This document shows positions 34,012-63,703 of a DNA stretch of 64,000 nucleotides, in pieces. The first letter of the stretch is position 1; each line of letters opens with the position of its first letter. The position numbers and the translations under genes were made by a program. Source of the DNA: Ancylomarina euxina (GTDB taxonomy: Bacteria > Bacteroidota > Bacteroidia > Bacteroidales > Marinifilaceae); the NCBI RefSeq assembly GCF_003863355.1, contig NZ_QQWG01000001.1:1-64000 (forward strand). Reading direction: 5' to 3'. The notes beneath the pieces are model-generated. The model made no database searches, was not told where the DNA came from, and saw nothing but the letters and a program-made list of their open reading frames with translations.

Positions 34012-34839
34012 TTATTTTAAAAACGTATTTTTGCTTTGAATTTTCGAGGTAGATTCTACAGTTTCAAGTTCTTCAGAATTGTATTGGCTGGGAACATTTA
34101 GGTGAAAAATTGAGCCTTTACCTAATTCGGACTCAAGTTTTATAGAACCTTTCATCAATTTCATATAACGAGAACATAGGCTTAAACCAATGCCAGCACC
34201 AGATTGCTTACGTGTATATGAATTATCAACCTGATTGAATCTTTCAAAGATTGATTGCTGTTGTTCTAAACTAATCCCAGCGCCAGTATCCTTCACAAAG
34301 ATTTTAATCTTCTGATCGTCTTGCAAGGAACAAGAAAGTTGGATTTCTCCAGATTGAGTAAAATTAATGGCATTATCCAGTAGGTAGCTGATTGATTTCT
34401 CCAGCTTTTCACCATCAATTAGTATATTGGGATTAATGCAATTGACTTGATAATTAATTGTAATGTCTTTACCTAGAACTTTTATCTTCTCTTCGTAGAG
34501 GGTATATAACCTAATGATAAGAGCTTCCAGATCAATTTCGGATTCCTCGACTTGCATAATGCCCGAATCCAGTTGTGATAAATCTATAATTCGATTGAGT
34601 AAATCGAGAAGTGAACGACTGCTAATATTCAGGATAGAAGCAAATTCATTTCGTTCGTCATTAGTTAGTGACTCGTCTCTCAGGATGTCCGATGCTCCAA
34701 TGATGGCATTCATGGGCGTGCGTATTTCATGTGAAATATTCGCAAGGAAAGCATTCTTTATATCTTCTGCTCCTTCTGCTCTTTGTAATGCCTCTGCTAA
34801 CTGTTCTTCAAGCTCGCAGTAAGTCGGACGTTTATCCAT
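34012..34839 (-). CDS. Soluble histidine kinase without sensor domain
   Basis: This 275-residue kinase has a short coiled coil (residues 9-30) and a HisKA domain with phospho-His37 in ANISHEIRTPMNAIIGASDI. The HATPase_c domain has LLDNAINFT, KDTGAGI, ERFNQVD and GAGIGLSL. No membrane helix, PAS domain or receiver is present. The short tail (residues 250-275) is polar. It lies 75 bp downstream of two tiny double-glycine peptide genes on the same strand, so the three may be one transcript. Its input must come from a partner protein; the receiver at 21.7 kb is one candidate output. Confidence 0.88.
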   Translation of the reverse strand: MDKRPTYCELEEQLAEALQRAEGAEDIKNAFLANISHEIRTPMNAIIGASDILRDESLTNDERNEFASILNISSRSLLDLLNRIIDLSQLDSGIMQVEESEIDLEALIIRLYTLYEEKIKVLGKDITINYQVNCINPNILIDGEKLEKSISYLLDNAINFTQSGEIQLSCSLQDDQKIKIFVKDTGAGISLEQQQSIFERFNQVDNSYTRKQSGAGIGLSLCSRYMKLMKGSIKLESELGKGSIFHLNVPSQYNSEELETVESTSKIQSKNTFLK

Positions 34840-34914: not shown

Positions 34915-35019
34915 CTAGACAATTGCTTCTTCAACAATATCTTTCTGAGTTAGTTCATTATGTCCACCTTTTACCTCTAGTAATTGCTCTGCGCTAATAA
35001 TCTCGAAATTATTCATCAT
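34915..35019 (-). CDS. Double-glycine leader peptide 1
   Basis: This 34-codon gene starts at ATG 35019. The predicted leader MMNNFEIISAEQLLEVKGG ends in the double-glycine cleavage motif (LLEVKGG) recognised by C39 peptidase ABC exporters. The predicted mature product is HNELTQKDIVEEAIV, 15 residues and net acidic, with no cysteine. The same mature sequence is encoded by the neighbouring gene 28 bp upstream, with only silent base changes, which argues that both are real. The acidity suggests a signal peptide rather than a pore-forming bacteriocin. A candidate exporter lies at 59.7 kb. Confidence 0.8.
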   Translation of the reverse strand: MMNNFEIISAEQLLEVKGGHNELTQKDIVEEAIV

Positions 35020-35047
35020 AGTATGTTTTGGAAAATTAATAAAAAAA

Positions 35048-35149
35048 TTAAACAATAGCTTCTTCAACAATATCTTTCTGAGTTAGCTCATTATGACCAC
35101 CTTTTACTTCTAATAATTGCTGTGTGTTAAGAATTTCAAAATTTTCCAT
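35048..35149 (-). CDS. Double-glycine leader peptide 2
   Basis: This 33-codon gene has leader MENFEILNTQQLLEVKGG and mature product HNELTQKDIVEEAIV, identical to that of peptide 1. The leaders share the NFEI and QLLEVKGG blocks but differ between them. In the mature part three codons differ and all changes are silent (GAA/GAG, GCA/GCT, GTC/GTT). It is the first gene of a leftward unit: peptide 2, peptide 1, soluble kinase. A 33-bp element shared with the sigma-factor gene lies 45 bp upstream of the start. Confidence 0.82.
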   Translation of the reverse strand: MENFEILNTQQLLEVKGGHNELTQKDIVEEAIV

Positions 35150-35193: not shown

Positions 35194-35226
35194 CTTTATT
35201 CCCTTTTTGGATAAAAAGTAACCCAG
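35194..35226 (-). promoter_or_regulatory. 33-bp shared element upstream of the peptide genes
   Basis: Read leftward, it begins CTGGGTTACTTTTT, continues with a short spacer and an A run, and ends GGAATAAAG. The same blocks with the same total length occur 11 bp upstream of the ECF sigma gene, and in degenerate form at 38540. This suggests common control, perhaps by that sigma factor. Confidence 0.55.
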
Positions 35227-35330: not shown

Positions 35331-38204
35331 GTGAAAAAAAATCAAGAAATATCTCGATATCTGCTGATTACGGCATGCTTTTTTATGCTTTGTGGATCGA
35401 CCTTTCATGCAAAAGCATCAAAACCATCACCAGTTTTTCAATCAGATGTGACAACATCTGCTGATTCGACTCTGCTCATTATACTAAATAAGGCTGTCAA
35501 TGAATTACGTGCTCGAAATAATAAGGGAGCGGAGAGTTTCTTTAAGCAAGCAGAAAGTAGGATTAGTGAAAGTGACTTAAAGAATTATGAGCTTTTATAT
35601 CGATATAAAGTTAATTATGGGGTTACTCTTATAAGATTGGGGAACTTTAAAGATGCAATTCCCCTTTTTAATTCGGCAGAACGTATCTGTAAGAATCATT
35701 TTGGAGAATCCTCTGGTAAATTAGCTCCAGTCTACATAAACATGGGGAATATTTATTTTAATTCAAAAGACAATTTAAAAGCACAAAAATATTATGAGGC
35801 GGCTCTTTTTATTATTGATAAAAACCCAGAAGCCTCATTCTGGAGGGATCGAATAATAAGTAATCTTGGTCTGGTTTCAAAGAGCAATAAAGACTTTACT
35901 AAAGCACTCAAATATTTGTTAGAAAGTCTTGACATAAAGAAAAAAAGAAATGTGAAAGATCTTTCTTCCAGCTATAATAATATCGGCAATTGTTATGATA
36001 AACTAGGGGATAGTAAGGAAGCTGATCGTTATTTCGAAATGAGTGTACAGGAATCCATCAAATTGAATGGAGAGGGAAATTCTGATTTGGCAAATTTTTA
36101 TTTGAATTATGCCATCTTTCATGCCTCTAATGAAAATGGAGCATTGGCTAAAGAATACCTAAATAAATCCTTTAAAATTTATTTAGATAAATTTGGATTG
36201 AGGCATCCAGACACGGCTCATTGTTTGAAAAATTTAGGTGGCTTGTATTTTAAAGACCAGGACTATGTTAAGGCATTAGAATATTATCAAAAAGCGCTTA
36301 TTTCTAGCACCTATGACTTTGAAAGTGAAGAATGTGATCAGAATCCTAGTATCCAGCAAGTAGACGGTCAATTGACCACTTTTGATATCATTGATGATAA
36401 AGCCTCCGCCTTATATAAGTTGTATGGTACTACAAATCAGATTAAGTATTTAAAATTGTCTCTTGAGACGTTTGATTTGTGCGTTGATATTATAGATCAA
36501 ATCCATATTGCTTATCAGGATGAAGAATCGAAGTTGGCATTGAGTGCCAATGAGAATGAAACCTTTTCTTCCGCTATCGAGGTGGCTGCCAAATTGTTTG
36601 AAATTACAGGTAATCCGATTTATAAAGAAAAAGCTTTTAGATATTCCGAAAGAGCTAAGGCATCTAGTTTGCGTAACTATTTAAATGATGTCGATGCTAA
36701 AACATTTGGAGGTATTCCTATTGATCTGCAAAATTTGGAGCATCAATTAAAGCAAGATATTGCTGATTATCGTGATAAGATCTATCAGGAGAGAAAACAG
36801 CTTAGACCGGTTCAGGATTCTATATCGAGTTGGCGACATACTCTTTTTGGACTGAATACTGATTATGAGCAAATGGTGAAGCGTTTCGAAAAGGAACATC
36901 CAGACTATTATGCCTTAAAGTATGATAATGCAAGTATTTCTGTAGAAGAGCTACAAGCTCAATTAAAAGATGATGAAGTCCTGATTGAATATGCCTTATC
37001 GGATTCCACCCTGTATTCTTTTGCTATAAGTTCTGATCTTTTCGAAATGAAAAAAATACCTCTAAGAAAAGGGGAATTAGAGAAAAGCATTACTGATATT
37101 CGAACCAGTTTAAAGACCAATGATTTTTCCGGTAATAGTATGCAATATTATCAGGATTATATTTCTGCAGCTCATAAGCTTTATCAATTTATGATTAAGC
37201 CTTACGAAGAGCTTATAGAGAATAAACATTTAATTATTATTCCTGAAGGTAAATTGGCCTATGTACCCTTTGGCGTATTGCTTAAGGAAAAAGGAGACCC
37301 TGAGAGCTTGAATTATCGTAATTTGGATTATCTGGTACGTCACAATCCAATAAGCTATCAAAACTCAGCTACCATTGCTTACAAGCGTCCTGAAAAGGGT
37401 TTTTCTGTCCCTTCATCCAAAAGACTATTGGCTTTTGCGCCTTCCTATGATAATGTGAGCGACTCAATCCTGGTAACCAGACAAGTTCATGACAACAAGC
37501 TTTATCCTCTGCCTGCAGCTAAAATTGAGGTTGAGAATATTTCTAAAATATTCAATGGTGAAACCTATCTGGATGAATTGGCTTCTGAAACGAATTTTAA
37601 GGCTAAAGCAGTGAGTTTTGATATACTTCATTTAGCCATGCATACTATTTTAGACGATGATAATCCGATGTATTCAAAGTTAGTTTTCACCCAAACAGGT
37701 GATAGTTTGAATGACGGTTTATTGAATGCTCATGAGATTTATAATATGAATCTTAAAGCCAGAATGGTTGTTTTGAGTGCCTGTAATTCGGGAGATGGTA
37801 AGTTTCTTAAAGGTGAGGGTGTTATGAGTTTAGCTCGTGGATTCTTCTATTCGGGTTGCCCAAGTTTAATCATGACACTTTGGACTGTGGAAGATGTTTC
37901 AGGGGCTAGCTTAATGTCTTCATTTTATAAGTACTTATCTCAAAGTTTTCCTAAGGACGTTGCTCTGCAGCAAGCCAAGCTGGAATATCTGGATACTGCC
38001 GATGCTTTGAAATCGCATCCTTACTTTTGGTCGGGCTATGTTGCCATTGGTGATACTGAAAGCTTGTTCAGATTCAGTATGATTCATAAGATTTTGATGT
38101 TCCTGGGGCTTACTTTATTGTTTGGAGGCATTTATTTCATTTGGCAACGTTCGACATCTAAAAAGACTGGCGAACAAACTCTTGACATCATGAACTTAGA
38201 ATAA
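35331..38204 (+). CDS. Secreted membrane-anchored TPR-CHAT protease, copy 1
   Basis: This 957-residue protein has a signal peptide (about residues 1-29), then TPR repeats from about residue 45 to 320 (for example YINMGNIYFNSKDNLKAQKY, SYNNIGNCYDKLGDSKEA). A helical linker and a CHAT domain (caspase-HetF-associated protease) follow at about residues 560-905. The catalytic dyad is in place: His771 in LHLAMHT and Cys818 in LSACNSG. One membrane helix lies at residues 921-938, with a short cytoplasmic tail. The protease should face the periplasm. It starts at GTG, as does its paralogue. It is divergent from the double-glycine peptide genes. Its substrate is unknown; the peptides or the anti-sigma protein at 42 kb are plausible. 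Confidence 0.9.
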   Translation: MKKNQEISRYLLITACFFMLCGSTFHAKASKPSPVFQSDVTTSADSTLLIILNKAVNELRARNNKGAESFFKQAESRISESDLKNYELLYRYKVNYGVTLIRLGNFKDAIPLFNSAERICKNHFGESSGKLAPVYINMGNIYFNSKDNLKAQKYYEAALFIIDKNPEASFWRDRIISNLGLVSKSNKDFTKALKYLLESLDIKKKRNVKDLSSSYNNIGNCYDKLGDSKEADRYFEMSVQESIKLNGEGNSDLANFYLNYAIFHASNENGALAKEYLNKSFKIYLDKFGLRHPDTAHCLKNLGGLYFKDQDYVKALEYYQKALISSTYDFESEECDQNPSIQQVDGQLTTFDIIDDKASALYKLYGTTNQIKYLKLSLETFDLCVDIIDQIHIAYQDEESKLALSANENETFSSAIEVAAKLFEITGNPIYKEKAFRYSERAKASSLRNYLNDVDAKTFGGIPIDLQNLEHQLKQDIADYRDKIYQERKQLRPVQDSISSWRHTLFGLNTDYEQMVKRFEKEHPDYYALKYDNASISVEELQAQLKDDEVLIEYALSDSTLYSFAISSDLFEMKKIPLRKGELEKSITDIRTSLKTNDFSGNSMQYYQDYISAAHKLYQFMIKPYEELIENKHLIIIPEGKLAYVPFGVLLKEKGDPESLNYRNLDYLVRHNPISYQNSATIAYKRPEKGFSVPSSKRLLAFAPSYDNVSDSILVTRQVHDNKLYPLPAAKIEVENISKIFNGETYLDELASETNFKAKAVSFDILHLAMHTILDDDNPMYSKLVFTQTGDSLNDGLLNAHEIYNMNLKARMVVLSACNSGDGKFLKGEGVMSLARGFFYSGCPSLIMTLWTVEDVSGASLMSSFYKYLSQSFPKDVALQQAKLEYLDTADALKSHPYFWSGYVAIGDTESLFRFSMIHKILMFLGLTLLFGGIYFIWQRSTSKKTGEQTLDIMNLE

Positions 38205-38284
38205 AACCTATTTAAGTCACTTTTCGCCTCAAAATATTAAATATCAGGTTTATTAATAAAAATAAAAGAATTACAAGGGGAGTC

Positions 38285-38428
38285 CATTATCGTTGGCGAA
38301 TTGAGAACAAACATTATTAGATTTTGGATCTTACTATATTCAAGGATGTTTCAAGAAAGAGAGTAGGAAAGGCCTCAGAAATATTCGCCATACATATCAA
38401 AATTGCCATTAACTTACTGAAAAGATGA
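38285..38428 (+). pseudogene. Remnant of an ISAs1-family transposase
   Basis: One frame reads HYRWRIENKHY, a stop, then ILDLTIFKDVSRKR and KASEIFAIHIKIAINLLKR, a stop, then KIRIAYGQVKK. This follows the C-terminal block of ISAs1 DDE transposases (HW-x-IEN-x-LHW-x-LD-V-x-F-x-ED-x-SR-x-R...IALNLLK). Two in-frame stops and the lack of the N-terminal two thirds make it nonfunctional. No terminal inverted repeats are seen. Confidence 0.7.
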
Positions 38429-38539
38429 AAAATTCGAATAGCCTATGGGCAAGTGAAAAAGGTTGATAGCAGAATAAGATTAAAACCAGTTACTCATAGT
38501 TCTCAGTAAAAAGTATGAGTTTGCCTTCCTTTTTCGTCT

Positions 38540-38572
38540 CTTTATTTCTTTGGAAGAGTAGAAGTAATCCAG
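38540..38572 (-). promoter_or_regulatory. Degenerate copy of the 33-bp element
   Basis: It has the same length and order of blocks as at 35194 and 43059, with several substitutions (CTGGATTACTTCT at one end, AATAAAG at the other). It sits 104 bp upstream of the second CHAT gene, the same distance as copy 1 from the first, so it was carried by the tandem duplication. Confidence 0.45.
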
Positions 38573-38675
38573 AAACAGAAAGTTTTATTTCAAAAACATA
38601 AATAAGTTCTATGTTTTTCATAATTTCACGAACTTATTTGTTACGTATTCAGTTTTTTAAACTATCTCCCCCAAA

Positions 38676-41549
38676 GTGAGAATCAAACAAGAAATATTTC
38701 GATATATACTGATTACTGCATGCTTTTTTATGTGTTGCGGATTCAATTTTCACGTAAAAGCATCAAAACCATCTCAAGCTCTTCAATCAGATGTGACAAC
38801 ATCTGCAGATTCTTCCTTACTCGTTATACTAAATAAGGCCGTAAATGAATTGCTTTCTCAAAATTATAAGGGGGCGGAGATCTTTTTTAAAGAAGCTGAA
38901 GAAGGTATTGACGAAAGTGAGTTGAATAATATTGAGCTTTTATATCGATATAAAGTCAATTATGGAGTTGCACTTCGAAAATTAGGAAAATTTAAAGATG
39001 CATTGGTTTCTTTTAATTCAGCTGAGATTATTTGTAAAAAGAACTATGGAGAATTATCAGGTAAACTAGCTCCTGTATATGCCAATGTGGGAAATATTTA
39101 TCTTAATTTGAAAGATAATATAAAGGCACAAAAATTTTATGAGGCTGCTCTTTTTATTATCGAAAAGAATCCCTCGGCTTCACGCTGGAAAGATCCAATA
39201 ATGAATAACCTTGGTCTGGTTTCAAAGAACAATAAGGACTATAATAATGCTCTCAAATATTTATTTGAGGGACTAAAAATTAAGAAAGCAAGGAATGCTA
39301 CAAATCTTTCTGTGAGTTACACTAATATTGGTAATTGTTATAAGGAATTGGGTTACGATAAAGAGGCTAATCATTATTTTAAATTGAGTATTGATGAATC
39401 GATTAAATTAAATGGGGATGGTAATTCCGATTTGGCTAACTTTTATTTGAATTATGCCATATTTCATTCTTCTAAGGAAAATGGAGTTTTGGCTGAAGAA
39501 TATTTAAATAAGTCCTACAAAATTTATTTAGATAAGTTTGGATTAAAGCACCCTGACACGGCTCATTGTTTGAAAAATTTGGGTGGCTTGTACTTCAAGG
39601 ATAAAGACTATACTAAAGCCCTAGAGTATTACCAAAAAGCACTTGTGTCAAGCACCTATGACTTTCATGGAGAAGGTTTTGAGCAGAATCCCAATATACA
39701 GCAAATTGATGGTCAGTTATCGACATTTGATATTATAAATGACAAGGCTACAACATTAGAGAAGCTGTATGCTGAATCAAAACAAGTCAAGTATCTTAAA
39801 GCATCCTTGAATACATTCGATTTGTGTGTTGATATTATTGATCAAATTCGAATTGCTTATCAGGATGAAGAATCAAAGTTGGCACTGAGTGCCAACGAGA
39901 ATGAAACCTTTTCTTCAGCTATTGAGGTGGCTGCAGATTTGTTTGAAATCACGGGTAATCCAATTTATAAGGAGAAAGCTTTTAGGTATTCGGAAAGCGC
40001 TAAGGCATCTAGTTTACGTCACTTTCTAAATGATGTCGACGCTAAATTAATTGGGGGTATTCCTATTGATCTTCAAAACTTGGAGCATCAATTAAAACAA
40101 GATATTGCAGATTACCGTGATAAGATTTATCAGGAGAGAAAGCAGTTTCATCCTAGGCAAGACTCTGTCGCTAATTGGCGCTATACTTTATTTGGTCTGA
40201 ATGTCGACTATGAGAAAATGGTGAAGCGTTTTGAGACAGATCACCCAAGCTACTATGCCATTAAATACTCTAGTGCAGGCATTTCTGTAGAAGAACTGCA
40301 AAAGCAGCTGAAAGAAGATGAAATATTGCTTGAATATGCCTTATCTGGTTCAACTTTGTATTCTTTTGCTATTGGTTCTGATCTTTTCGAAATGAAAAAA
40401 GTGAGCCTAAAACAAGGTGAGTTTGAGAAAAGTATCACTAATATTCTAAGCTGTTTAAAGACCAATGATTTTTTTGGTAATCGTATGAAATATCATCAGG
40501 ATTATATTTCTGCAGCTCATAAGCTTTATCAATTTGTAATCGAACCTTATGAAGATGTTATTCTGAATAAGCATTTAATCATAGTCCCCGAAGGTAAAAT
40601 GGCCTATGTCCCCTTTGGTGTATTGTTGAAGCAAAAAGGAGACCCTGAGAGTTTGAATTACCGTGATTTGGATTACCTGATACGTCATAATCCTATTAGT
40701 TATCAAAACTCAGCTACGATTGCTTACAAGCGACCTAATAAAGGATTTTCAACACCATCATCAAAAAGACATTTGGCATTTGCTCCGTCCTATAATAATT
40801 TGAGCGATTCAATTCTAACAACCAGAAATATTCGTAACAACAATCTTTTTCCTTTACCTGGAGCTAAAGTAGAGGTTGAAAATATTTCTAAGATATTTGC
40901 AGGTGAGACTTATACTGATGAGCTTGCTTCTGAGACGAATTTTAAGAAAAAAGCTGAGGATTTTGACATTCTTCATTTAGCCATGCATACCATTTTAGAT
41001 GATGATAATCCCATGTATTCAAAATTGGTTTTTACTCAAACAGGAGATACTTTTAATGACGGTTTATTGAATGCTCATGAGATTTACAATATGAACCTTA
41101 AAGCCAGGATGATTGTCTTGAGTGCTTGTAATTCAGGAAACGGAAAATTCCTTAAGGGAGAGGGTATTATGAGTTTGGCACGTGGTTTTTTCTATTCGGG
41201 TTGTCCAAGTTTAATCATGACACTTTGGACTGTGGAAGATTTATCAGGATCGACTTTAATGTCTTCATTTTATAAGTACTTGGCTCAAAGTTTTCCTAAG
41301 GACGTTGCTCTCCAGCAAGCTAAACTGGAATATCTTGAAACAGCTGATGCATTTAAATCGCATCCTTACTTTTGGTCGGGCTATGTTGTTATTGGTGATA
41401 AAGAAACCTTGTTCAGATTCAGTATGATTCATAAGATCTTGATGTTTCTGGGACTATCTCTTCTATTTGGAGGTATTTACTTCATTTGGCAACGCTCGTC
41501 TTCTAAAAATATTCACGAACAAACTCTGGATGAGTTCGATTTAGTTTAA
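38676..41549 (+). CDS. Secreted membrane-anchored TPR-CHAT protease, copy 2
   Basis: This paralogue of the preceding CHAT protein has exactly the same length (957 residues) and no large gaps. It has the same signal peptide type, TPR block, and catalytic His771 and Cys818 (LHLAMHT, LSACNSG). The same C-terminal membrane helix is present. The C-terminal third is almost unchanged, while the TPR region differs most, so the two copies may recognise different partners with the same protease. It also uses GTG as start. It is followed by the converging sigma/anti-sigma operon. Confidence 0.9.
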   Translation: MRIKQEIFRYILITACFFMCCGFNFHVKASKPSQALQSDVTTSADSSLLVILNKAVNELLSQNYKGAEIFFKEAEEGIDESELNNIELLYRYKVNYGVALRKLGKFKDALVSFNSAEIICKKNYGELSGKLAPVYANVGNIYLNLKDNIKAQKFYEAALFIIEKNPSASRWKDPIMNNLGLVSKNNKDYNNALKYLFEGLKIKKARNATNLSVSYTNIGNCYKELGYDKEANHYFKLSIDESIKLNGDGNSDLANFYLNYAIFHSSKENGVLAEEYLNKSYKIYLDKFGLKHPDTAHCLKNLGGLYFKDKDYTKALEYYQKALVSSTYDFHGEGFEQNPNIQQIDGQLSTFDIINDKATTLEKLYAESKQVKYLKASLNTFDLCVDIIDQIRIAYQDEESKLALSANENETFSSAIEVAADLFEITGNPIYKEKAFRYSESAKASSLRHFLNDVDAKLIGGIPIDLQNLEHQLKQDIADYRDKIYQERKQFHPRQDSVANWRYTLFGLNVDYEKMVKRFETDHPSYYAIKYSSAGISVEELQKQLKEDEILLEYALSGSTLYSFAIGSDLFEMKKVSLKQGEFEKSITNILSCLKTNDFFGNRMKYHQDYISAAHKLYQFVIEPYEDVILNKHLIIVPEGKMAYVPFGVLLKQKGDPESLNYRDLDYLIRHNPISYQNSATIAYKRPNKGFSTPSSKRHLAFAPSYNNLSDSILTTRNIRNNNLFPLPGAKVEVENISKIFAGETYTDELASETNFKKKAEDFDILHLAMHTILDDDNPMYSKLVFTQTGDTFNDGLLNAHEIYNMNLKARMIVLSACNSGNGKFLKGEGIMSLARGFFYSGCPSLIMTLWTVEDLSGSTLMSSFYKYLAQSFPKDVALQQAKLEYLETADAFKSHPYFWSGYVVIGDKETLFRFSMIHKILMFLGLSLLFGGIYFIWQRSSSKNIHEQTLDEFDLV

Positions 41550-41737: not shown

Positions 41738-42490
41738 TTATTCCAGTTTGTTGAGAATCTCTTTGGCTTTTGTTCTGTAGAAACTATTCCCTTTGGCAAT
41801 AGCACTATAAGTTTCCTTAGCCTTTTCTCTTTCGTTAGTCATTAGGTAGCAAATTCCTAAATACCACTCAGATTGCTCTATAAACAGGTTATTTTTGTGT
41901 TTTAATACTCGAATAAAATTCTTATTCGCTTTGGGGTATTCTTGTACTTGAATATTAGAAATACCGGAATAGAAGTTACTCGTTAAATTGGTACTGTCTT
42001 TATCTAGTATGGTTTGGAATAATGATAAAGCAGCACGATAATTTTTAGACTCATAGGATTTAAGAGCCTGTTCCAGAATTTTATCTGCATTATCAGCATC
42101 AGAAGCGGAACGAGTATTGATTACAATACCGTAGGGCTTGTAGTAGTTTCTGAATATTTCTTCATTGGAATATGGTTTGTTGCCAAGCATAGAATATATG
42201 CCAGCCATACCAATAAAAAGAATCATAGAAGCAGCAGCAATCCTCCATTTACCTTGGAATCTCGCTTTGCGTTTTTCAATAGGAGCAGGAATATCAATAG
42301 CTTCAAGTTTGCTTCTAAGCTCCATGACATCCTCTTCCATAATTGCCTCGTTAATCTCGTTATGAAGATTTAGTTCCATCTCCAGGTCAAGATCATCCAT
42401 TAGATCTTTTTCAAAATCTAAGATTTCATTTTCGTTAAGCAGACCGTCTAGATAATTATCTATGCGATCAAAGTTTTTTTCGTCCATCAT
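41738..42490 (-). CDS. Membrane anti-sigma-like protein with TPR domain
   Basis: The N-terminal cytoplasmic part (residues 1-75, acidic, starting FDRIDNYLDGLLNENEILDFE) has the pattern of Bacteroidota anti-sigma factors. One membrane helix follows (about residues 83-101, IAAASMILFIGMAGIYSML). The periplasmic part carries TPR-like repeats (AALSLFQTILDKDSTN, YPKANKNFIRVLKHKN, AKETYSAIAKGN). It starts within the stop of the sigma gene (ATGA overlap), a translational coupling typical of sigma/anti-sigma pairs. It probably holds the sigma factor inactive until a periplasmic signal or cleavage releases it. The neighbouring periplasmic CHAT proteases are candidates for that cut. Confidence 0.8.
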   Translation of the reverse strand: MMDEKNFDRIDNYLDGLLNENEILDFEKDLMDDLDLEMELNLHNEINEAIMEEDVMELRSKLEAIDIPAPIEKRKARFQGKWRIAAASMILFIGMAGIYSMLGNKPYSNEEIFRNYYKPYGIVINTRSASDADNADKILEQALKSYESKNYRAALSLFQTILDKDSTNLTSNFYSGISNIQVQEYPKANKNFIRVLKHKNNLFIEQSEWYLGICYLMTNEREKAKETYSAIAKGNSFYRTKAKEILNKLE

Positions 42491-43047
42491 ACTTCGGTAA
42501 ATTGATTATCGCTTTTAATATTCATTATAAGTGTTTGCTTGCACTTATATTTCCTAGATTTCACGTAATCTTCTCCGGCAAAGCCCATTTTTTTTGCAAT
42601 TTCTTTTGCAGATACTTTCTCAAGATAAAGTCTCATGATTTCCTGACAATCAGCTGGCAAACGTTTAAAATGCTTCTGATACAGACGGTACTTTTCAGTT
42701 TGCTCGTAAGATAAACTTACATCATCAACCTGTTGGTCGAGTACTACGTCTGATTGGATAATGTCAAGATTATCATTCCTTTTCTCAAGTTTTTTTAACC
42801 ACAATAGTCGGCATACAGAGTAGATATACGTTCTAAAGTTACAAGTCAGCACTATAGGTGCTTTCTTCATCTTTCGAAAGATTACAATGATAGCCTCCTG
42901 AAAAAGATCGCGTGCGTCTTCACTGGTTCCACTATTATTTTCAACGAATCTGCAAGTATCAGGAAAGAACTTGCGATAGATGTAATTCAATACATCATTA
43001 TTGCTCATTCCAATTCCTTCTAGAATTGCTTCTGTTGTGTAATCCAT
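42487..43047 (-). CDS. ECF-type sigma factor
   Basis: This 186-residue sigma-70 family protein has region 2 (NDVLNYIYRKFFPDTCRFV, then SEDARDLFQEAIIVIFRKM and CNFRTYIYSVCRLLWLKKL). It also has region 4 (YQKHFKRLPADCQEIMRLYLEKVSAKEIAKKMGF, then VKSRKYKCKQTL). No region 1 or 3 is present, so it is of the extracytoplasmic-function class. It overlaps the anti-sigma-like gene by 4 bp. A 33-bp element lies 11 bp upstream of its start and also upstream of the double-glycine peptide genes, suggesting autoregulation and a small local regulon. Confidence 0.9.
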   Translation of the reverse strand: MDYTTEAILEGIGMSNNDVLNYIYRKFFPDTCRFVENNSGTSEDARDLFQEAIIVIFRKMKKAPIVLTCNFRTYIYSVCRLLWLKKLEKRNDNLDIIQSDVVLDQQVDDVSLSYEQTEKYRLYQKHFKRLPADCQEIMRLYLEKVSAKEIAKKMGFAGEDYVKSRKYKCKQTLIMNIKSDNQFTEV

Positions 43048-52189: not shown

Positions 52190-52310
52190 GCCCCGGGAAA
52201 ATAGATCTAAATCAATTCTCAACCCGGAAGCGACTTGGTAAGCTTTGCAGCTCTTAACAAAGGCAAAGCTACTAAAATGAGATGACTCGTACAATTGGCA
52301 ATTGTGTGGG
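52190..52310 (+). ncRNA. Structured leader of the small peptide gene
   Basis: Three hairpins lie in series: CCGGG/CCCGG (52193-52197 with 52223-52227), AGCTTTGC/GCAAAGCT (52241-52248 with 52263-52270), and ACAATT/AATTGT (52291-52296 with 52300-52305). They end 33 bp before the peptide start codon. It does not match any riboswitch class I could recall. It could be a regulatory 5' leader or a separate small RNA. Confidence 0.4.
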
Positions 52311-52342
52311 AAATGGAGCTATGCTGATTTATTATTTAAGTT

Positions 52343-52540
52343 ATGAAATTAAAAATGTTATGTGTTGTTGGAATCATTTTTTTAAGTTTAGGAGCTACTA
52401 AAAGTGCTAATGCAGCTTGTATCACGGCAAGTGTTGACTGTGGAGGTGGTAAAGGTGGTTATGGTTTGGTTTGTGGAGATTCTGGACAAGAAATGGCCGA
52501 TAATGCAAAGGAAATGGCTGATGTCATTTGTGGTGGATAA
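52343..52540 (+). CDS. Small secreted four-cysteine peptide
   Basis: This 65-residue precursor has a Sec signal peptide (residues 1-24, ending KSANA) and a 41-residue mature part. The mature part has four cysteines (C26, C33, C44, C63), a glycine-rich loop (CGGGKGGYG) and C-terminal CGG. The cysteine number would allow two disulfides in the periplasm. It resembles short peptide precursors found near GLPGLI and NVEALA-type loci in Bacteroidota, but I cannot place it in a family. A structured leader precedes it. A terminator-like hairpin separates it from four GLPGLI genes. Possible roles are secreted effector, toxin or signal. Confidence 0.7.
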   Translation: MKLKMLCVVGIIFLSLGATKSANAACITASVDCGGGKGGYGLVCGDSGQEMADNAKEMADVICGG

Positions 52541-52612: not shown

Positions 52613-53452
52613 ATGAAACAGTCTATTTTAGCATTAATACTAATAATGCTTACATGTTGTGTGTCAGCCCAAGAACGTATCACTATAGATACAATTAAGA
52701 GTATATTCTATTACGATTACAATTTTCAACAAGATTCCACTGATTCGGGAAGTGAAGTGTATCAGGAAATGGTTCTCCAAGTAGGTACTAACCATTCAAA
52801 ATTTATAAGTGTAAATGCTCTTTTAACAGACTCGTTACTCTTCACAGTTAAAGATTTAGAAGCAGGTGTGGGGTTTTCTAAAGTATGGCCTCAGATGAAT
52901 GGGTTAAGGGAAAATATATTATGTAAGTATGTTGTTTATAAAGATTACCCCCAAAAAAGGAATAGTCAATTTGTAGGTAAACTAGGTGCAAAAACAACTA
53001 TAATGGTGAATGAGCAAATAAATTTTAATTGGCAGCTAGAACAAGTTAGAGATACTAGTATTTTGGGATACACATGCCAAAAAGCGACATGTAGCTTTGG
53101 AGGGAGAAATTATGAAGCCTGGTATACCATTGAGATTCCTATTAGTGATGGTCCTTATAAATTTGAAGGTTTACCAGGTTTAATTGTTCGAGTTGCCGAT
53201 GTCGAAAAAGAACACATCTTTCAGCTCTATGGGGTCAAGAATTATAGTAAAGATATGACTCCTATGTATGGAAAAGCCCAAAAACTACAAACAACCACTG
53301 CTCAGGGCTTTGCAAAAGCCGTGAAAGTGTATCTTGCTGATTTGTATAGAAAATATGGAGGTAATCCCGATATAAGCTATTCAAATCCCGATGGTGAGTC
53401 AAAAACCTTGAGAAATATCAGATCTAAAAATAATTTTATAGAAAGGTATTAA
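52613..53452 (+). CDS. GLPGLI-family exported protein 1
   Basis: This 279-residue protein has a signal peptide (ending CVSAQ) and the family hallmark GLPGLIVRVAD near residue 190. The hallmark is preceded by YTCQKATCSFGGRNYEAWYT and IPISDGPYKF. The C-terminus SNPDGESKTLRNIRSKNNF plus IERY is shared with the next three genes. GLPGLI proteins are exported Bacteroidota proteins of unknown function, commonly beside TonB-dependent receptor genes, as here. It is the first of four tandem paralogues. Confidence 0.9.
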   Translation: MKQSILALILIMLTCCVSAQERITIDTIKSIFYYDYNFQQDSTDSGSEVYQEMVLQVGTNHSKFISVNALLTDSLLFTVKDLEAGVGFSKVWPQMNGLRENILCKYVVYKDYPQKRNSQFVGKLGAKTTIMVNEQINFNWQLEQVRDTSILGYTCQKATCSFGGRNYEAWYTIEIPISDGPYKFEGLPGLIVRVADVEKEHIFQLYGVKNYSKDMTPMYGKAQKLQTTTAQGFAKAVKVYLADLYRKYGGNPDISYSNPDGESKTLRNIRSKNNFIERY

Positions 53453-53607
53453 TATTGAGAACTGTATATGTATTAGGAGATACTACTCTTAAGACCTGAG
53501 GATCTGTTGTACAAGTTATGGGGGATTTGGAAGTTCTTCTCGATGCAGTTTGTAATTAATTGAAATAACTAAAGAGAAACTCTCTCTCTCTTAAAACCAT
53601 TTTAGGT

Positions 53608-54447
53608 ATGAAAAAGTATTGTGTTTTAGTATGGTCACTATTATTGTCGATCTCTGTTTTTGGACAAGATTTTGTCAAAGTAGACACTATTGTAAAGGAA
53701 TTCTATTACGATTATAATTTCCAACGAGATTCGACCGATTCTAGCAGTGAAAAATATCAGGAAATGGTATTGCAAGTAGGCAAAAAACATACAAAATTTA
53801 CGAGTACAAATACCCTTTACAAAGACTCATTACTCTTTGTGTATAAAGATTTAGATCCAATGGTTGCACTTTCTAAAATCATGCCTGAAATCAGTGGATT
53901 CGTAACAAGTAGTTTATGTAAGTATGTTATTTATAAAAACTACCCTCAAAAAGGAAGTGTTCAATTTATTGGAAAATTAGGTTCAAAAATAAACTTAGGG
54001 GTAAATGAGGAAATAAAATTAGATTGGCAATTAGAAGAAGTTAGAGATACTAGTATTTTGGGGTACACTTGTCAAAAAGCTACCTGTTATTTTGGAGGAA
54101 GAAATTATGAAGCCTGGTATACTATGGAAATACCAATTAGTGACGGACCTTATAAATTTAATGGTTTACCTGGTTTAATTGTTCGAATTGCCGATGTCGA
54201 AAAGGAACATGTTTTTCAGCTACATCGCGTTAAAAATTGTATGAGTAATAAGGCTTTAATTTATACAAAACCAGATAAATTCCAAACTTCAACTGCACGG
54301 GGTTTTGTTAAGGCTCTGAAAGTTCATTTTGCCAATTTGTATCGAAGATATAGTGGTAATAATAGTATAACGCATACGAGCCCCGATGGCGAAGCAAAAA
54401 TGTTAAGAAATATTCGTGCCAATAATAATTATATAGAAAGATATTGA
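53608..54447 (+). CDS. GLPGLI-family exported protein 2
   Basis: This 279-residue paralogue has a signal peptide ending VFGQ, GLPGLIVRIAD, and the same FGGRNYEAWYT block as protein 1. It ends ...RANNNYIERY. The 155-bp gap before it is the longest between the four and may hold a promoter. Just past its stop, at 54454, the sequence ATGATAAGGATTCTT repeats the start of the outer membrane gene at 56197 and then hits a stop, a scar of duplication. Confidence 0.9.
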   Translation: MKKYCVLVWSLLLSISVFGQDFVKVDTIVKEFYYDYNFQRDSTDSSSEKYQEMVLQVGKKHTKFTSTNTLYKDSLLFVYKDLDPMVALSKIMPEISGFVTSSLCKYVIYKNYPQKGSVQFIGKLGSKINLGVNEEIKLDWQLEEVRDTSILGYTCQKATCYFGGRNYEAWYTMEIPISDGPYKFNGLPGLIVRIADVEKEHVFQLHRVKNCMSNKALIYTKPDKFQTSTARGFVKALKVHFANLYRRYSGNNSITHTSPDGEAKMLRNIRANNNYIERY

Positions 54448-54492
54448 TACAATATGATAAGGATTCTTTAACTCTATTCAAATAGTTTAGAT

Positions 54493-55329
54493 ATGAAAAA
54501 ATATGCAGTTTTAGTGTGGTTGATATTATTATCAAGCACGGTATTTACTCAGAAATATATAAAAATTGATAGTGTGTTGACTGAATTTTATTACGATTAT
54601 AATTTCCAACAAGATTCAACCGATTCTAATAGTGAAAAATATCAAGAAATGGTACTTCAAGTTGGTATGCATTCTTCAAAATTCACAAGTGTTAATATCT
54701 TATATACAGATTCATTGCTTTATACTGTTAGAGATTTAGGTGCTGCCGGGTTTTCAAAAATATGGACCAAAATTAGTGGCTTAAGAGTTCATCGTTTTTG
54801 TGAGTATACATTATTTAAAAATTATCCGAATAAAGGGAATATCCATTTTAAGGGAGGTTTGGGTCCGAAAGTGAATGTTATGGTTGACGAGTCAATAAAT
54901 TTTAATTGGAAGTTACAAACCAATTCAGACACTATTATTGCTAAATATCCTTGCCAGAAAGCTACTTGTAATTTTGGAGGACGGAAATACGTAGCTTGGT
55001 ATACAATGGTGATACCTATTAGTGATGGACCCTATAAATTTAAGGGTTTACCTGGCCTAATAGTTCGTATAGCAGACACTAAAAAAGAACATGTTTTTCA
55101 GTTGTACAAGGTGAAAAATAGTAATGCTGGTACTTCTATAATCAATGTTGTTGAGGATCAATATCAGAATTCAACACCGCAAGGTTTTGCAAAAGCCATG
55201 AAGGTTTATATTGCAGATATGTATCGAAAATATGGAGGTAATACAGATATAAGCTATTCAAATCCAGATGGTGAATCGAAAACCTTAAGAAACATACGTG
55301 CGAAAAATAATTATATAGAAAGATATTGA
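54493..55329 (+). CDS. GLPGLI-family exported protein 3
   Basis: This 278-residue paralogue has a signal peptide (ending TVFTQ), KATCNFGGRKYVAWYT, GLPGLIVRIAD and the common C-terminal SNPDGESKTLRNIRAKNNY. It is separated from the next paralogue by only 6 bp, so these are translated from one transcript. The variable parts lie in the first 150 residues, suggesting that recognition of different partners drives divergence. Confidence 0.9.
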   Translation: MKKYAVLVWLILLSSTVFTQKYIKIDSVLTEFYYDYNFQQDSTDSNSEKYQEMVLQVGMHSSKFTSVNILYTDSLLYTVRDLGAAGFSKIWTKISGLRVHRFCEYTLFKNYPNKGNIHFKGGLGPKVNVMVDESINFNWKLQTNSDTIIAKYPCQKATCNFGGRKYVAWYTMVIPISDGPYKFKGLPGLIVRIADTKKEHVFQLYKVKNSNAGTSIINVVEDQYQNSTPQGFAKAMKVYIADMYRKYGGNTDISYSNPDGESKTLRNIRAKNNYIERY

Positions 55330-55335
55330 TACAAT

Positions 55336-56190: not shown

Positions 56191-56196
56191 TATAGT

Positions 56197-59684: not shown

Positions 59685-61892
59685 ATGAAAAAAAAATTCC
59701 CTCACTTTCGTCAACTCGATGCCATGGACTGCGGGCCCACTTGCCTGCGCATGATATCGAAGTTTTATGGTAAAACATATAGCTTGCAATCGCTGCGCGA
59801 TAAATCCTACATTACCCGTGAAGGGGTATCGATGATGGGTATTGCCGATGCGGCTGAGAGTATTGGTTTTCGTAGTATGGGGGTACGAATTACTTTTGAG
59901 CAGTTGGCCGAGCAGGCAACACTACCTGCTATTTGTCATTGGAACCAAGCGCATTTTGTGGTGGTTCATAAAATCGAGAAAAAGAAGAATAAAACTATCG
60001 TTCATGTTGCGGACCCAGCTTCGGGTTTATTGAAATTTACTAAGGAAGAGTTTATTAAGGCTTGGGCTTCGACTAAGGTTGATGGTGAATTGAAAGGCTT
60101 GTGTTTATTGTTGGAGGCTACACCTGATTTTTATAAAGCCAAGGATGAGAGCAAGAGCAGGAAAAAGAGCCTGGTTTTTCTTTTACGCTACCTTAAGCCC
60201 TACAAAAAGTTCCTTTTTCAATTGTTCCTGGGCATGCTTTTCGGAAGTATGCTGCAGCTTATTTTTCCATTCCTCACGCAGTCGGTGGTGGATATCGGGA
60301 TTAATACGCAGAACCTGAGTTTTATTTATTTGGTGCTGATTGCACAGATGGTGCTTTTTATCTCTCGTATATCGGTTGAGTTTATTCGTTCCTGGATACT
60401 CTTGCATATCTCTACCCGCATAAATATTTCTCTGATTTCCGATTTCCTAATCAAGCTGATGAAGCTGCCTATTGGTTTCTTTGACATCAAGATGATTGGT
60501 GATCTTTTACAGCGTATACAAGACCATACACGTATCGAGAATTTCCTGACTTCCTCGACTCTGAATATTCTGTTCTCCATGGTGAACTTGTTGATATTCG
60601 GTGTGGTATTGGCTATTTATAACATGACTATTTTCGCTGTTTTCCTTTTGGGATCTAGTCTTTATATTATTTGGATCAACCTTTTCCTGAAAAAGCGTCG
60701 GGAGTTGGATGGCAAGCGTTTCGCACAGCTATCGAGTAATCAGAATTCATTGGTTCAGTTGATTACTGGGATGCAGGAAATCAAGCTGAACAACTGCGAA
60801 AAGCAGAAGCGATGGGAGTGGGAACAGATTCAGGCTGAACTCTTTCAGGTGCGTACCAAAGGACTGGCATTGAACCAGTATCAGGTATCGGGTTCGGTCT
60901 TTTTTAATGAAACCAAAAATATTGTTATCACTTTTTTAGCAGCGCAAGCTGTGGTGAATGGTAGTATGACCTTGGGTATGATGCTGGCGGTTCAGTACAT
61001 TCTTGGTCAATTGAATTCGCCAATTGATAATTTGGTTCAGTTCATTCATTCCTGGCAGGATGCTAAGATTTCTCTTGAACGTTTGGGAGAGATACATGAA
61101 ATGGACGATGAGGAATTGGATAAGGATGAAAAGTTAATTGAATTGCCTGAAGATAAATCCATTCATATCGAAAAAGTAAGCTTTCAATACGAAGGACCAC
61201 ATTCCGAAATGGTGTTGAATGAGGTTGATCTGCACGTGGCAAAAGGTAAAACAACGGCTATTGTTGGTGCTTCTGGCTCCGGTAAAACAACTTTGATTAA
61301 GCTTATGTTGGGATTCTATCCAGCAACCAAGGGGAAGATTAATTTAGGTGGGGTTTCCATTCAAAATTACAGCTCAGCCATGTGGCGTCAGAACTGTGGT
61401 GTGGTTATGCAAGATGGCTTTATCTTTTCGGATACTATTGCTAAGAATATTGCGGTTGGTGATGAAGTCATTGATAAAAAAAGATTGCTTTATTCGGTGC
61501 AAGTCGCCTGTATTCATGAGTTTATTGACAGTTTGCCATTGCGATACAACACCAAGATTGGGGCTAATGGCCATGGATTGAGTCAGGGACAAAAACAGCG
61601 CATATTAATTGCTCGTGCCGTTTATAAAAATCCGGAATTCTTATTTTTTGATGAAGCGACCAATGCTCTTGATGCCAATAATGAAAGGGCTATCATGGAA
61701 AATCTGGATGAGTTCAATCAGGGACGTACGGTTGTTGTTGTTGCCCATCGTTTAAGCACGGTACGAAATGCCGATAAGATCATTGTTCTGGATAAAGGAC
61801 AAATTGTGGAACATGGTAGCCATAAGGATTTGACTCAATTGAGAGGTCGCTATTACGAATTGGTTAAGAATCAACTAGAACTGGGCAATTAG
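59685..61892 (+). CDS. C39-peptidase ABC exporter for double-glycine peptides
   Basis: This is a single-chain exporter of 735 residues. The N-terminal C39 peptidase (residues 1-130) has its triad: Cys16 in LDAMDCGPTCL, His90 in NQAHFVVVHK and Asp110 in VADPASG. A six-helix membrane domain (about residues 165-440) is followed by an ABC ATPase with Walker A GASGSGKTTLIKL, signature LSQGQKQRILIARAVY and Walker B FLFFDEATNALD. Such proteins cut leaders after Gly-Gly and export the product with a HlyD partner, encoded 0.5 kb downstream. The peptides at 35 kb have matching leaders; no such leader gene was found next to the exporter. Confidence 0.95.
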   Translation: MKKKFPHFRQLDAMDCGPTCLRMISKFYGKTYSLQSLRDKSYITREGVSMMGIADAAESIGFRSMGVRITFEQLAEQATLPAICHWNQAHFVVVHKIEKKKNKTIVHVADPASGLLKFTKEEFIKAWASTKVDGELKGLCLLLEATPDFYKAKDESKSRKKSLVFLLRYLKPYKKFLFQLFLGMLFGSMLQLIFPFLTQSVVDIGINTQNLSFIYLVLIAQMVLFISRISVEFIRSWILLHISTRINISLISDFLIKLMKLPIGFFDIKMIGDLLQRIQDHTRIENFLTSSTLNILFSMVNLLIFGVVLAIYNMTIFAVFLLGSSLYIIWINLFLKKRRELDGKRFAQLSSNQNSLVQLITGMQEIKLNNCEKQKRWEWEQIQAELFQVRTKGLALNQYQVSGSVFFNETKNIVITFLAAQAVVNGSMTLGMMLAVQYILGQLNSPIDNLVQFIHSWQDAKISLERLGEIHEMDDEELDKDEKLIELPEDKSIHIEKVSFQYEGPHSEMVLNEVDLHVAKGKTTAIVGASGSGKTTLIKLMLGFYPATKGKINLGGVSIQNYSSAMWRQNCGVVMQDGFIFSDTIAKNIAVGDEVIDKKRLLYSVQVACIHEFIDSLPLRYNTKIGANGHGLSQGQKQRILIARAVYKNPEFLFFDEATNALDANNERAIMENLDEFNQGRTVVVVAHRLSTVRNADKIIVLDKGQIVEHGSHKDLTQLRGRYYELVKNQLELGN

Positions 61893-62364: not shown

Positions 62365-62398
62365 TACATCGCTTTTTGAAACCAGTATACCGTTGAAT

Positions 62399-63703
62399 AT
62401 GGAACAAGATACAAATATAGAATTGCGCTCGGAGTCCGTTCAAGAGATTCTAGGGAAAATGCCATCATGGATCGTTCGTGTAGGTTCAGGATTAGTGTTT
62501 CTTGTCGTGCTGATATTAGTAATCGGTTCTTGGTTTTTCTCTTATCCGGAGATTATCAGCTCGAAGCTTGTTTTAACGACAGAGAATCCTCCTGCAGAGT
62601 TGATTGCTCGTGTAAATGGTAAGATTATAGATTTAAAAGTGAGCGATAATCAGCTGATTGAGGCTGGTGATTTGTTGGCTGTTATTGAAAACCCAGCGAA
62701 TTCGCAAGATGTTTTCTCATTACGTAAACAGCTTAATAATCAGATTCCTCAGTTTGATGGGAAGAATGAAATGACACCCGAATTTGTCGATAAAAATTAT
62801 CGTTTGGGTGAGGTGCAAGCTCCATTTAACGCTTATCTAAAGGCTTGTACAGATTATAGCCGTTTTGTCGATCTTCAATATCACGAAAAAAAGAAAGCTT
62901 CTTTGATTCAGAAAAGAAGTAACTATCGCATGTATTACAATCGTCAATACAAACAGCGAAATATTTTAGAGAAGGAGTTGGCAATTGTGTATAAAGAATT
63001 CCATCGGGATTCTCTGCTCTATACCCGAGGAGTGATTTCAAAAGCCAATTATCAGCAATCGGAGAAGGAATATCTACAACAAAGCTATGCCTTTCATGGT
63101 TCACGTTCAACCCTTTCCTCAACTCAAATTCAGATTAATGAGGTGGATCAATCGATTATTGACTTGGATTTGGATGAAGAAAATAAAAGAAAGGAATTGC
63201 TTGATCAGATTTTGCATGCCTATGATAATTTGACTGCTCAGATTGATATATGGGAGCAGAATTATCTGCTTAAATCACCAATTACAGGTGCAGTTAGTTT
63301 CAATCGATTTTGGTCAGCTAACCAAAATGTGAAACAAGGTGAAAAGGTTTTTACAGTACTTCCATCGGATTCAACTCGAATTATAGTTCGTGTTGATTTA
63401 GGAATGAATCGTTCTGGTAAGGTACAACTCGGACAACGTGTCAATATTAAGCTTAATAACTACCCCTATATGGAATTTGGCATGCTCGAAGGCAGTATAC
63501 GCTCAATTTCTGAGGTTCCTGATGGCGACAATTATAGCTTAGACGTTGAGTTAACTAATGGGCTTATAACTAGCTATGGAAAAGAATTAAAATTCGCTCA
63601 AAAGATTGAAGGAGTTGCCGAAATTATTACTGAGGATCAACGTTTACTTCAGCGTATTTTTAATCCATTAAAGGCACTTTTGAAGGAACACGTGGTTAAA
63701 TGA
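62399..63703 (+). CDS. HlyD-family exporter accessory protein
   Basis: One N-terminal membrane helix (about residues 28-47, GLVFLVVLILVIGSWFF) is followed by a lipoyl-like half (ARVNGKIIDLKVSDNQLIEAGDLLAVIE). A long coiled-coil hairpin comes next, then the second half (SPITGAVSFNRFWSANQNVKQGEKVF) and a beta-barrel domain (VDLGMNRSGKVQLGQRVNIKLNNYPY). It should link the C39 ABC exporter to an outer membrane channel. I start at ATG 62399; an in-frame TTG lies two codons upstream. Confidence 0.92.
   Translation: MEQDTNIELRSESVQEILGKMPSWIVRVGSGLVFLVVLILVIGSWFFSYPEIISSKLVLTTENPPAELIARVNGKIIDLKVSDNQLIEAGDLLAVIENPANSQDVFSLRKQLNNQIPQFDGKNEMTPEFVDKNYRLGEVQAPFNAYLKACTDYSRFVDLQYHEKKKASLIQKRSNYRMYYNRQYKQRNILEKELAIVYKEFHRDSLLYTRGVISKANYQQSEKEYLQQSYAFHGSRSTLSSTQIQINEVDQSIIDLDLDEENKRKELLDQILHAYDNLTAQIDIWEQNYLLKSPITGAVSFNRFWSANQNVKQGEKVFTVLPSDSTRIIVRVDLGMNRSGKVQLGQRVNIKLNNYPYMEFGMLEGSIRSISEVPDGDNYSLDVELTNGLITSYGKELKFAQKIEGVAEIITEDQRLLQRIFNPLKALLKEHVVK

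Follow-up and report, generated by a model that had tools for sequence, protein, structure and literature searches.

The first 64,000 nucleotides of an Ancylomarina euxina contig (the whole stretch analysed here, referred to below as the window) contain two very small adjacent genes on the minus strand, which a first-pass annotation had singled out as encoding different leaders followed by one and the same 15-residue product. The question raised by this locus is whether such a peptide acts as a signal and, if so, which of the neighbouring genes may export it, perceive it and respond to it.

Two adjacent peptide genes with one mature product

Both genes have homologues in relatives and are as follows.

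35048..35149, minus strand: peptide gene copy 1, leader MENFEILNTQQLLEVKGG, mature part HNELTQKDIVEEAIV
34915..35016, minus strand: peptide gene copy 2, leader MNNFEIISAEQLLEVKGG or one Met longer, mature part HNELTQKDIVEEAIV

Copy 2 has 34 codons when the preceding ATG is counted and 33 when it starts as its relatives do. Both leaders end in VKGG and fit the double-glycine (GG) pattern, with GG at the cleavage site and hydrophobic residues at positions -4, -7 and -12; they differ from each other in 10 codons, five with an amino-acid change and five silent. The mature 15-mer HNELTQKDIVEEAIV is identical in both copies and differs in three codons, all of them synonymous, which confirms the original observation. 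Silent changes make up about 21% of the possible single substitutions in the mature part, and three independent changes would all be silent by chance with a probability of about 0.009. A peptide search of the A. euxina genome returned these two sites only.

Comparison with family models placed the window copies near PF10439 (21.9 and 15.9 bits, E 1.7e-4), thus under its cut-off of 27.1, and an NCBIfam scan of the window peptides gave no model over cut-off. Four of the ten representatives of the relatives exceeded the cut-off of TIGR01847 (15.7), and the ComC and BlpC family models matched these representatives weakly, below cut-off.

A conserved cassette around the peptide genes

The genes next to the twins, with the evidence for each, are listed below.

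34012..34839, minus strand: histidine-kinase-like (HK-like) protein with HisKA and HATPase domains (Pfam; family loci)
35331..38204, plus strand: TPR-CHAT (caspase-like) protease (PF12770, E 2.7e-58, with TPRs; alignments, structure model, fold search, hydropathy)
38676..41549, plus strand: second, tandem TPR-CHAT copy, 79-80% identical, without a peptide gene of its own (Pfam)
41738..42490, minus strand: protein with what seems to be one membrane span and with C-terminal TPRs (TM-TPR), putative anti-sigma factor (conserved in relatives)
42487..43047, minus strand: ECF-type sigma-70 factor (TIGR02937, 59.7 bits against a cut-off of 42.9; conserved in relatives)

The catalytic His-Cys dyad of the CHAT protease (His771 and Cys818) is invariant in 55 CHAT sequences. 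The window protease has a hydrophobic N-terminus and a C-terminal membrane helix; a C-terminal hydrophobic helix was present in 56/56 CHATs tested, with a positive tail in 52, and a hydrophobic N-terminus in 35/56, the last figure probably being an undercount because starts were forced to ATG (CHAT frames outside 850-1000 aa were omitted from this analysis). The structure model of the protease (mean pLDDT 81.9, pTM 0.73) found its best matches in Csx29 chains, separase and DdvA; the rmsd was high over long alignments, so what is shared is the order of domains and not their exact arrangement. The TPR part of the model matched LGN, kinesin light chain, RapI and a phage Rap with bound peptide, a resemblance to peptide receptors that is partly generic, and no HTH was among the Pfam matches of the protease. 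The tandem CHAT duplication (35331-41549) is present in this genome and was found in none of four other genomes of the genus searched.

The TM-TPR gene overlaps the sigma gene by 4 bases, and its product matched no known anti-sigma family, its hits being mostly TPR models with none over cut-off. The HK-like gene follows immediately after the peptides, on their strand, and its product has no membrane segment discernible by eye. In the 20 family stretches fetched (window included), the HK-like gene occurred in 17 and each of CHAT, sigma and TM-TPR in 16; where a gene was missing, this was mostly due to contig ends. The family order is sigma, TM-TPR, CHAT, a peptide array divergent from CHAT, and the HK-like gene on the peptide strand; neither a modification enzyme nor a CRISPR gene was recognised in the cassette. 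Family loci are flanked on one side by a gene that we take to be pheS-like and, in genera outside Ancylomarina, by ruvB on the other; because these flanking genes are also shared, the cassette appears to have been inherited mostly vertically.

Peptide copies in Marinifilaceae and signs of selection on the mature part

The link to CHAT genes guessed in the first-pass annotation proved correct, as the peptides adjoin CHAT genes in relatives, and the search of related genomes that it had proposed did uncover more copies: BLAST detected the peptide in 20/56 genomes of the family (Marinifilaceae), while a profile search gave some match at E <=0.5 in 26/56, of which 21 were strong (E <1e-6). In genome G024 only weak leader matches were obtained, by profile alone, and these correspond to two GG peptides beside its CHAT gene. 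CHAT orthologues (E <=1e-60) were found in 22/56 family genomes, the same 22 that carry peptides, mostly in tandem; the other 34/56 gave no convincing peptide in the profile search, their best match (E 0.09) lying in a fragmented bin. Altogether 82 peptide copies were collected from 22 assemblies, one to six in each, with some arrays ending at contig edges. The spacing between copies is 133-140 bp in Ancylomarina-type genomes and, elsewhere, mostly 152-174 bp. Among 393 genomes of the order (taken from a larger group), the profile matched 18 besides our own at E <=0.1, mostly as partial leader matches, and outside the family this set yielded no mature peptide of the family type.

Frames of this size arise by chance and two copies alone prove little, so that the twins, taken by themselves, could be a recent functionless duplication of chance or decaying ORFs. 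We hold this to be extremely improbable and rejected it, because there are 82 homologous copies in 22 assemblies with no stop inside the matches, and because mature-part pN/pS within genomes is 0.10-0.12, a value used as a description since copy pairs are not independent.

Divergence of leader and mature part runs in opposite order at the two levels compared, the leader being faster within a genome and the mature part faster between species. For copies of one genome with leader identity below 75%, the mature part had pS 0.75 and pN 0.078 (ratio 0.10, again descriptive) against a leader pN of 0.31, whereas between species the mature pN was 0.225, 0.239 and 0.263 in three genus-level groups against leader values of 0.079, 0.012 and 0.030. 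All mature copies were exactly identical in 8/21 assemblies with at least two copies, the remainder differing at one mature position (six assemblies) or at two to seven (seven assemblies), chiefly in Labilibaculum-type genomes. In five Ancylomarina-type genomes the mature part of both copies is identical. At the end of an array, the final copy frequently differs in leader type, yet its mature part is nearly the genome's own. When genomes were permuted, the within-genome match between copies was equalled in 2/720, 2/720 and 1/120 arrangements (sets of six, six and five genomes, the identity arrangement being counted).

This matching within genomes looks selected, because recent gene conversion alone would erase the silent differences too, and the earlier proposal of selection on the peptide itself is thereby supported: the product stays closely matched within genomes although silent sites are saturated. 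The same proposal had expected the mature part to be free of stop codons and of non-silent changes among relatives. No internal stop occurs among the profile matches listed, but non-silent mature changes do exist between species, as the values above indicate. Change of that kind is the wrong test, since what is kept is the similarity of copies inside one genome, alongside divergence between species, as would be expected of a specific signal.

The mean distance was 0.29 for the CHAT core and 0.49 for the TPR part. Co-divergence of the peptide with the CHAT TPR domain, in a partial Mantel test with PheS as control, was weak (partial r 0.16; p 0.046 before any correction for the 8 tests). When the CHAT core served as control, even an unrelated neighbour gave a positive value, which makes that control useless.

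Two further loci of the family are recorded here. In genome G033 (L037, 5427-9267) the CHAT and TM-TPR frames are both split while five peptide genes are open, which may reflect joint decay or an assembly error. A fragmented bin, G030, has a GG peptide ending in DGDVIIWQ (L109, 1655-1789) and a C39 orthologue, and gave no CHAT match at E <=1e-60.

The putative exporter

Two genes towards the end of the window encode a candidate export machinery.

59685..61892, plus strand: ABC exporter with a C39 peptidase domain, which probably processes and exports the peptide (Pfam; orthologue in relatives)
62393..63703, plus strand: HlyD-type membrane fusion protein beside the exporter (Pfam)

An orthologue of the exporter was present in 22/22 peptide genomes (68% identity in G024, at least 83% in the rest) and also in G030, and other family genomes with a C39 match did not exceed 63% identity. 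In the window 24 kb separate the exporter from the peptides; in 18/22 genomes it is on the peptide contig, 12-46 kb away. At locus L139 the peptide, TM-TPR, a HisKA protein (in which an ATPase domain was not detected), a LytTR protein, the C39 exporter and HlyD are all on one strand, and C39 matches of 65-73% identity were located upstream in L130, L132, L139, L140, L142, L150, L153 and L165. Several Marinifilaceae genomes have further GG peptides, so the cassette peptide is one candidate substrate of the exporter among others; in two of them, other GG peptides unlike the CHAT type were seen near C39 exporters (L105, 5037-5366; L107, 5902-8761).

In the window the exporter and HlyD genes are preceded by four tandem GLPGLI-type genes (one scanned, the other three alike by clustering) and a large protein without a Pfam match (52613-58839); a promoter of the cassette type was not found in front of these GLPGLI genes. 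A short frame at 52282-52401 of the window (MTRTIGNCVGNGAMLI...) resembles another at position 610 of L306 (MTCAIGGCAGNGVKLI...), the former preceding the GLPGLI/C39 cluster and the latter a lanthipeptide cluster; the two may represent a shared hairpin and not a gene.

CHAT loci beyond the family

A scan with the CHAT alignment found 222 relatives, from which the best 80 were kept, 62 of them distant; the counts of CHAT loci in this section refer to these best 80 of 222. A GG mini-gene was present upstream of CHAT in 37 of the 48 distant loci with at least 700 bp there. The density of GG-ORFs was 46 in 79,078 bp (0.58/kb) upstream of CHAT against 14 in 630,221 bp (0.022/kb) elsewhere in the same distant loci; the leader length of the filter had been relaxed after a first look at the candidates, and the stricter, earlier filter gave 18 candidates in 49 loci, at 0.23 against 0.028 per kb.

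Among the 59 loci with at least 700 bp of flank, a GG mini-gene accompanied 46/46 short CHAT frames (<=1010 aa) and 2/13 long ones (>1010 aa), the border having been chosen after the frame lengths were seen; the two long frames with a peptide (L131, L165) encode short proteins when read from the first ATG. On the CHAT tree (fasttree, with loci of uncertain peptide status omitted) the presence of the peptide requires one change, and the 11 peptide-less long CHATs cluster together. This long-CHAT group (L149, L159, L160, L164, L170, L177, L178, L180, L183, L184 and L185) had no GG mini-gene by the filter and no copy of the promoter described below upstream of CHAT; several members have a lipoprotein-like start by eye and some have a sigma gene nearby.

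Mature types track the CHAT clades (DLWPP, YADLN, VEDLD, DILV, DDEAWL and others). The 85 distinct mature peptides have a median of 15 residues and a median charge of -3; four are neutral, none is net positive and 26 contain Cys. The set is thus acidic overall, in line with the earlier description of the product, but the description as cysteine-free is true of this species and not of the kind. One peptide gene in L188 (position 7560, minus strand) has a doubled mature unit, KSEDVYVPLN-G-KSEDVYVPLN, perhaps another form of dose doubling.

A predicted ECF-type promoter and its putative regulon

The gap between the peptide and CHAT genes contains an element (GGGTTACCTTTT, 12 bases, AATAAA) oriented to the peptide, and the sites of this kind in the window are as follows.

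35195..35224, minus strand: predicted promoter of the peptide operon, GGGTTACTTTTT-N12-AATAAA
43060..43089, minus strand: the same predicted promoter upstream of the sigma gene, GGGTTACTTTTT-N12-AATAAA
38541..38570, minus strand: possible decayed copy with 3 mismatches, before the second CHAT copy

The -35-like part precedes the peptide gene in 50/57 loci with 300 bp of sequence there. It precedes the sigma gene in 22/54 short-CHAT loci (16/17 in Marinifilaceae) and in 0/7 long ones, the 32/54 loci missing it by this pattern being mostly distant; the -10-like part accompanies it but varies in distant loci (e.g. AATATA, AATTAA). We also considered the element as a promoter of CHAT and rejected this, as it is oriented to the peptide and sigma genes, and the distance from its end to the first ATG of the CHAT frame in L174 is 8 bases.

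A genome-wide search that tolerated at most one mismatch gave 88 sites, against 2 for the reversed pattern, in 14 of the 22 genomes with the cassette; in 14 of the 34 family genomes that lack it there were 3 sites against 1 for the control. When the -10 part was left out, the search lacked specificity (5-13 matches per genome, with 2-14 for the control, in 8 genomes). Since the element goes with the cassette, the simplest reader of the GGGTTAC-AATAAA sites would, judging by this co-occurrence, be the sigma factor of the cassette.

Twenty-eight of the 88 sites (two per cassette genome) belong to the peptide and sigma genes, and 48 of the 60 others were examined. Thirteen of these 48 stand before the gene for a small HTH protein (nine at a distance of 29-38 bp), and behind the HTH gene lie, for example, LanC and LanB genes in L296, L306 and L318, a GG peptide with a radical-SAM enzyme in L284, and a C39 gene in L304. 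A further 6/48 precede one family of proteins of up to 983 aa, whose member in L295 is a C25 protease with a type IX sorting tail, and 4/48 precede another, whose member in L308 is an S8 protease with an inhibitor propeptide; 19/48 were without a recurring target. Pfam gave no match for the regulon proteins of L286, L288, L290, L297 and L302 and only matches below cut-off for those of L305 and L315. In the A. euxina genome itself, the sites outside the cassette include one (0 mismatches) that precedes an HTH gene and a GLPGLI gene and another (1 mismatch) that precedes a cluster of S41, LytTR, LanC, LanB and C39 genes. An ORF start lay within 120 bp downstream of 34/48 sites and of 1099/1920 random positions, a comparison that is uninformative because positions inside genes also catch internal starts.

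What the peptide may do

The peptide, the C39 orthologue, the TPR-CHAT protease, and the ECF sigma factor with its overlapping TM-TPR gene are linked to one another, and one predicted two-part promoter stands before both the peptide operon and the sigma gene. The signalling role suggested by the first-pass annotation gains support from this linkage, as far as gene content and predicted sites can speak for it. In the reading that we favour and consider rather probable, the peptide is an exported, unmodified double-glycine autoinducer read by a periplasmic TPR-CHAT protease that frees an ECF sigma factor. The C39 exporter would cut after GG and secrete the 15-mer, which would bind the TPR superhelix of the membrane-anchored CHAT protease in the periplasm. 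The activated protease would then cut the one-span protein, the putative anti-sigma factor, in its TPR domain, or would initiate that cut. The freed sigma factor would transcribe the peptide genes and its own gene, in what we assume to be positive feedback, and may also drive a small regulon that takes in exported proteases as well as peptide clusters of the lanthipeptide and radical-SAM kinds. With several genes for nearly the same product, the dose of signal would be higher while the identity of that signal drifts between species.

The main rival has the same parts with the opposite sign: the peptide would be an inhibitor or decoy substrate of CHAT, filling the TPR groove or the active site in the periplasm as negative feedback within its own cell. 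Strict pairing with CHAT and a promoter common with sigma fit such feedback equally, and the acidic peptides with hydrophobic ends found in many clades might imitate a cleavage site. A mature part that diverges strongly between close species is, however, a trait more often expected in signals than in inhibitors whose target is a conserved active site, and in some distant loci the C39 exporter and its HlyD partner sit with the peptide. We therefore regard inhibition as unlikely, although it deserves to be kept in view. A class II bacteriocin, with CHAT or its partners giving immunity, is a still less likely identity for the 15-mer. The GG leader near PF10439, the TIGR01847 matches and the C39 exporter would all suit an antimicrobial, but not one of the 85 mature peptides is net positive, no modification enzyme was recognised in the cassette, and no immunity family appears there (judged by named families only). 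The predicted promoter also precedes real lanthipeptide clusters elsewhere in these genomes, for which reason the peptide looks more like a regulator of antimicrobials.

Marginally more doubtful again is a ComD-type role for the downstream HK-like protein, which would make it the peptide receptor and reduce CHAT to a bystander or peptide processor. Its gene follows the peptide array on the same strand in family loci, and HisKA and LytTR proteins belong to the L139 cluster; against this, the protein has no evident membrane segment, the L139 protein is the one in which the ATPase domain went undetected, and an HK-like match lies within 4 kb of the peptide in only 26/40 loci with enough flank, compared with the 46/46 pairing of peptide and short CHAT among the best 80 of 222 CHAT relatives.

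Comparison with known systems and significance

Double-glycine pheromones of the ComC/BlpC type are exported by C39 exporters, and the system proposed here resembles them in its GG leader, C39 exporter, species-specific mature part, predicted autoinduction and predicted control of bacteriocin-like clusters. It differs from them in having an ECF sigma factor and a caspase-like protease, an acidic peptide, a Gram-negative host and tandem copies, and no membrane kinase of the ComD type was seen. RRNPP receptors (Rap, NprR) are cytoplasmic and read re-imported peptides, unlike the TPR protein described here, which is predicted to face the periplasm, carries a protease and had no HTH matched.

Closer precedents exist for the protease. 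Csx29, a TPR-CHAT protein, cleaves an inhibitor of an ECF sigma factor in the type III-E CRISPR system CASP/Craspase (Csx29, Csx30, CASP-sigma), where, according to the part of the account consulted, the trigger is target RNA via Cas7-11 (PMC10028731). Compared with Craspase, the CHAT proteins here have the C-terminal hydrophobic helix throughout the 56 tested, a partner peptide of secreted type and no recognised CRISPR gene. To go by its PDB entry titles (8rot, 8rw5), the transmembrane anti-sigma factor DdvA combines a TPR-CHAT-like part and the anti-sigma function in one protein, whereas CHAT and the one-span TPR protein are here encoded by separate genes and joined by a peptide gene. By analogy, the best reading would be that of the Csx29 and DdvA precedents with a species-specific secreted peptide put in front. 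Heterocyst development in cyanobacteria likewise draws on a CHAT-TPR protein, HetF, together with the regulatory peptide PatS and the C39 exporter HetC; the portions of these accounts that were consulted mention no direct HetF-PatS link, joint cassette or sigma pair (PMC8406250, PMC10986499). A survey of Bacteroidales RiPPs reports TPR-domain genes in two predicted clusters and points out that TPR proteins act after pheromone binding elsewhere; in the sections consulted, it contains no CHAT domain and no cassette of GG peptide, CHAT and sigma (PMC10352776).

Our literature search (titles and the starts of abstracts, with subscription journals mostly uncovered) gave no account of a GG peptide with CHAT, and in it 'CHAT domain' and 'ECF sigma' occurred together only in the Csx29 paper (PMC10028731). 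Each part is thus known by itself, their joint occurrence as GG peptide, TPR-CHAT and ECF sigma is new as far as searched, and there is a real chance that it forms a class of its own. More tentatively, and without going so far as to call it probable, we suggest that these loci may represent a widespread, undescribed form of quorum sensing in Bacteroidales, in which hypervariable GG pheromones act through a periplasmic, caspase-like TPR-CHAT receptor protease; by cutting an anti-sigma partner, this protease would set an ECF sigma factor free and so switch on production of the pheromones together with lanthipeptide and other RiPP clusters and secreted proteases of the C25 and subtilisin types.

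If the favoured reading holds, a Gram-negative order would have a concrete and testable candidate for an unmodified peptide signal, and a trigger would be named for lanthipeptide clusters and secreted proteases in Bacteroidales. Caspase-like CHAT proteases would gain a small-peptide ligand beside the RNA trigger of Csx29, and the matching of mature parts within genomes, together with their drift between species, would offer a natural test bed for the co-evolution of signal and receptor.
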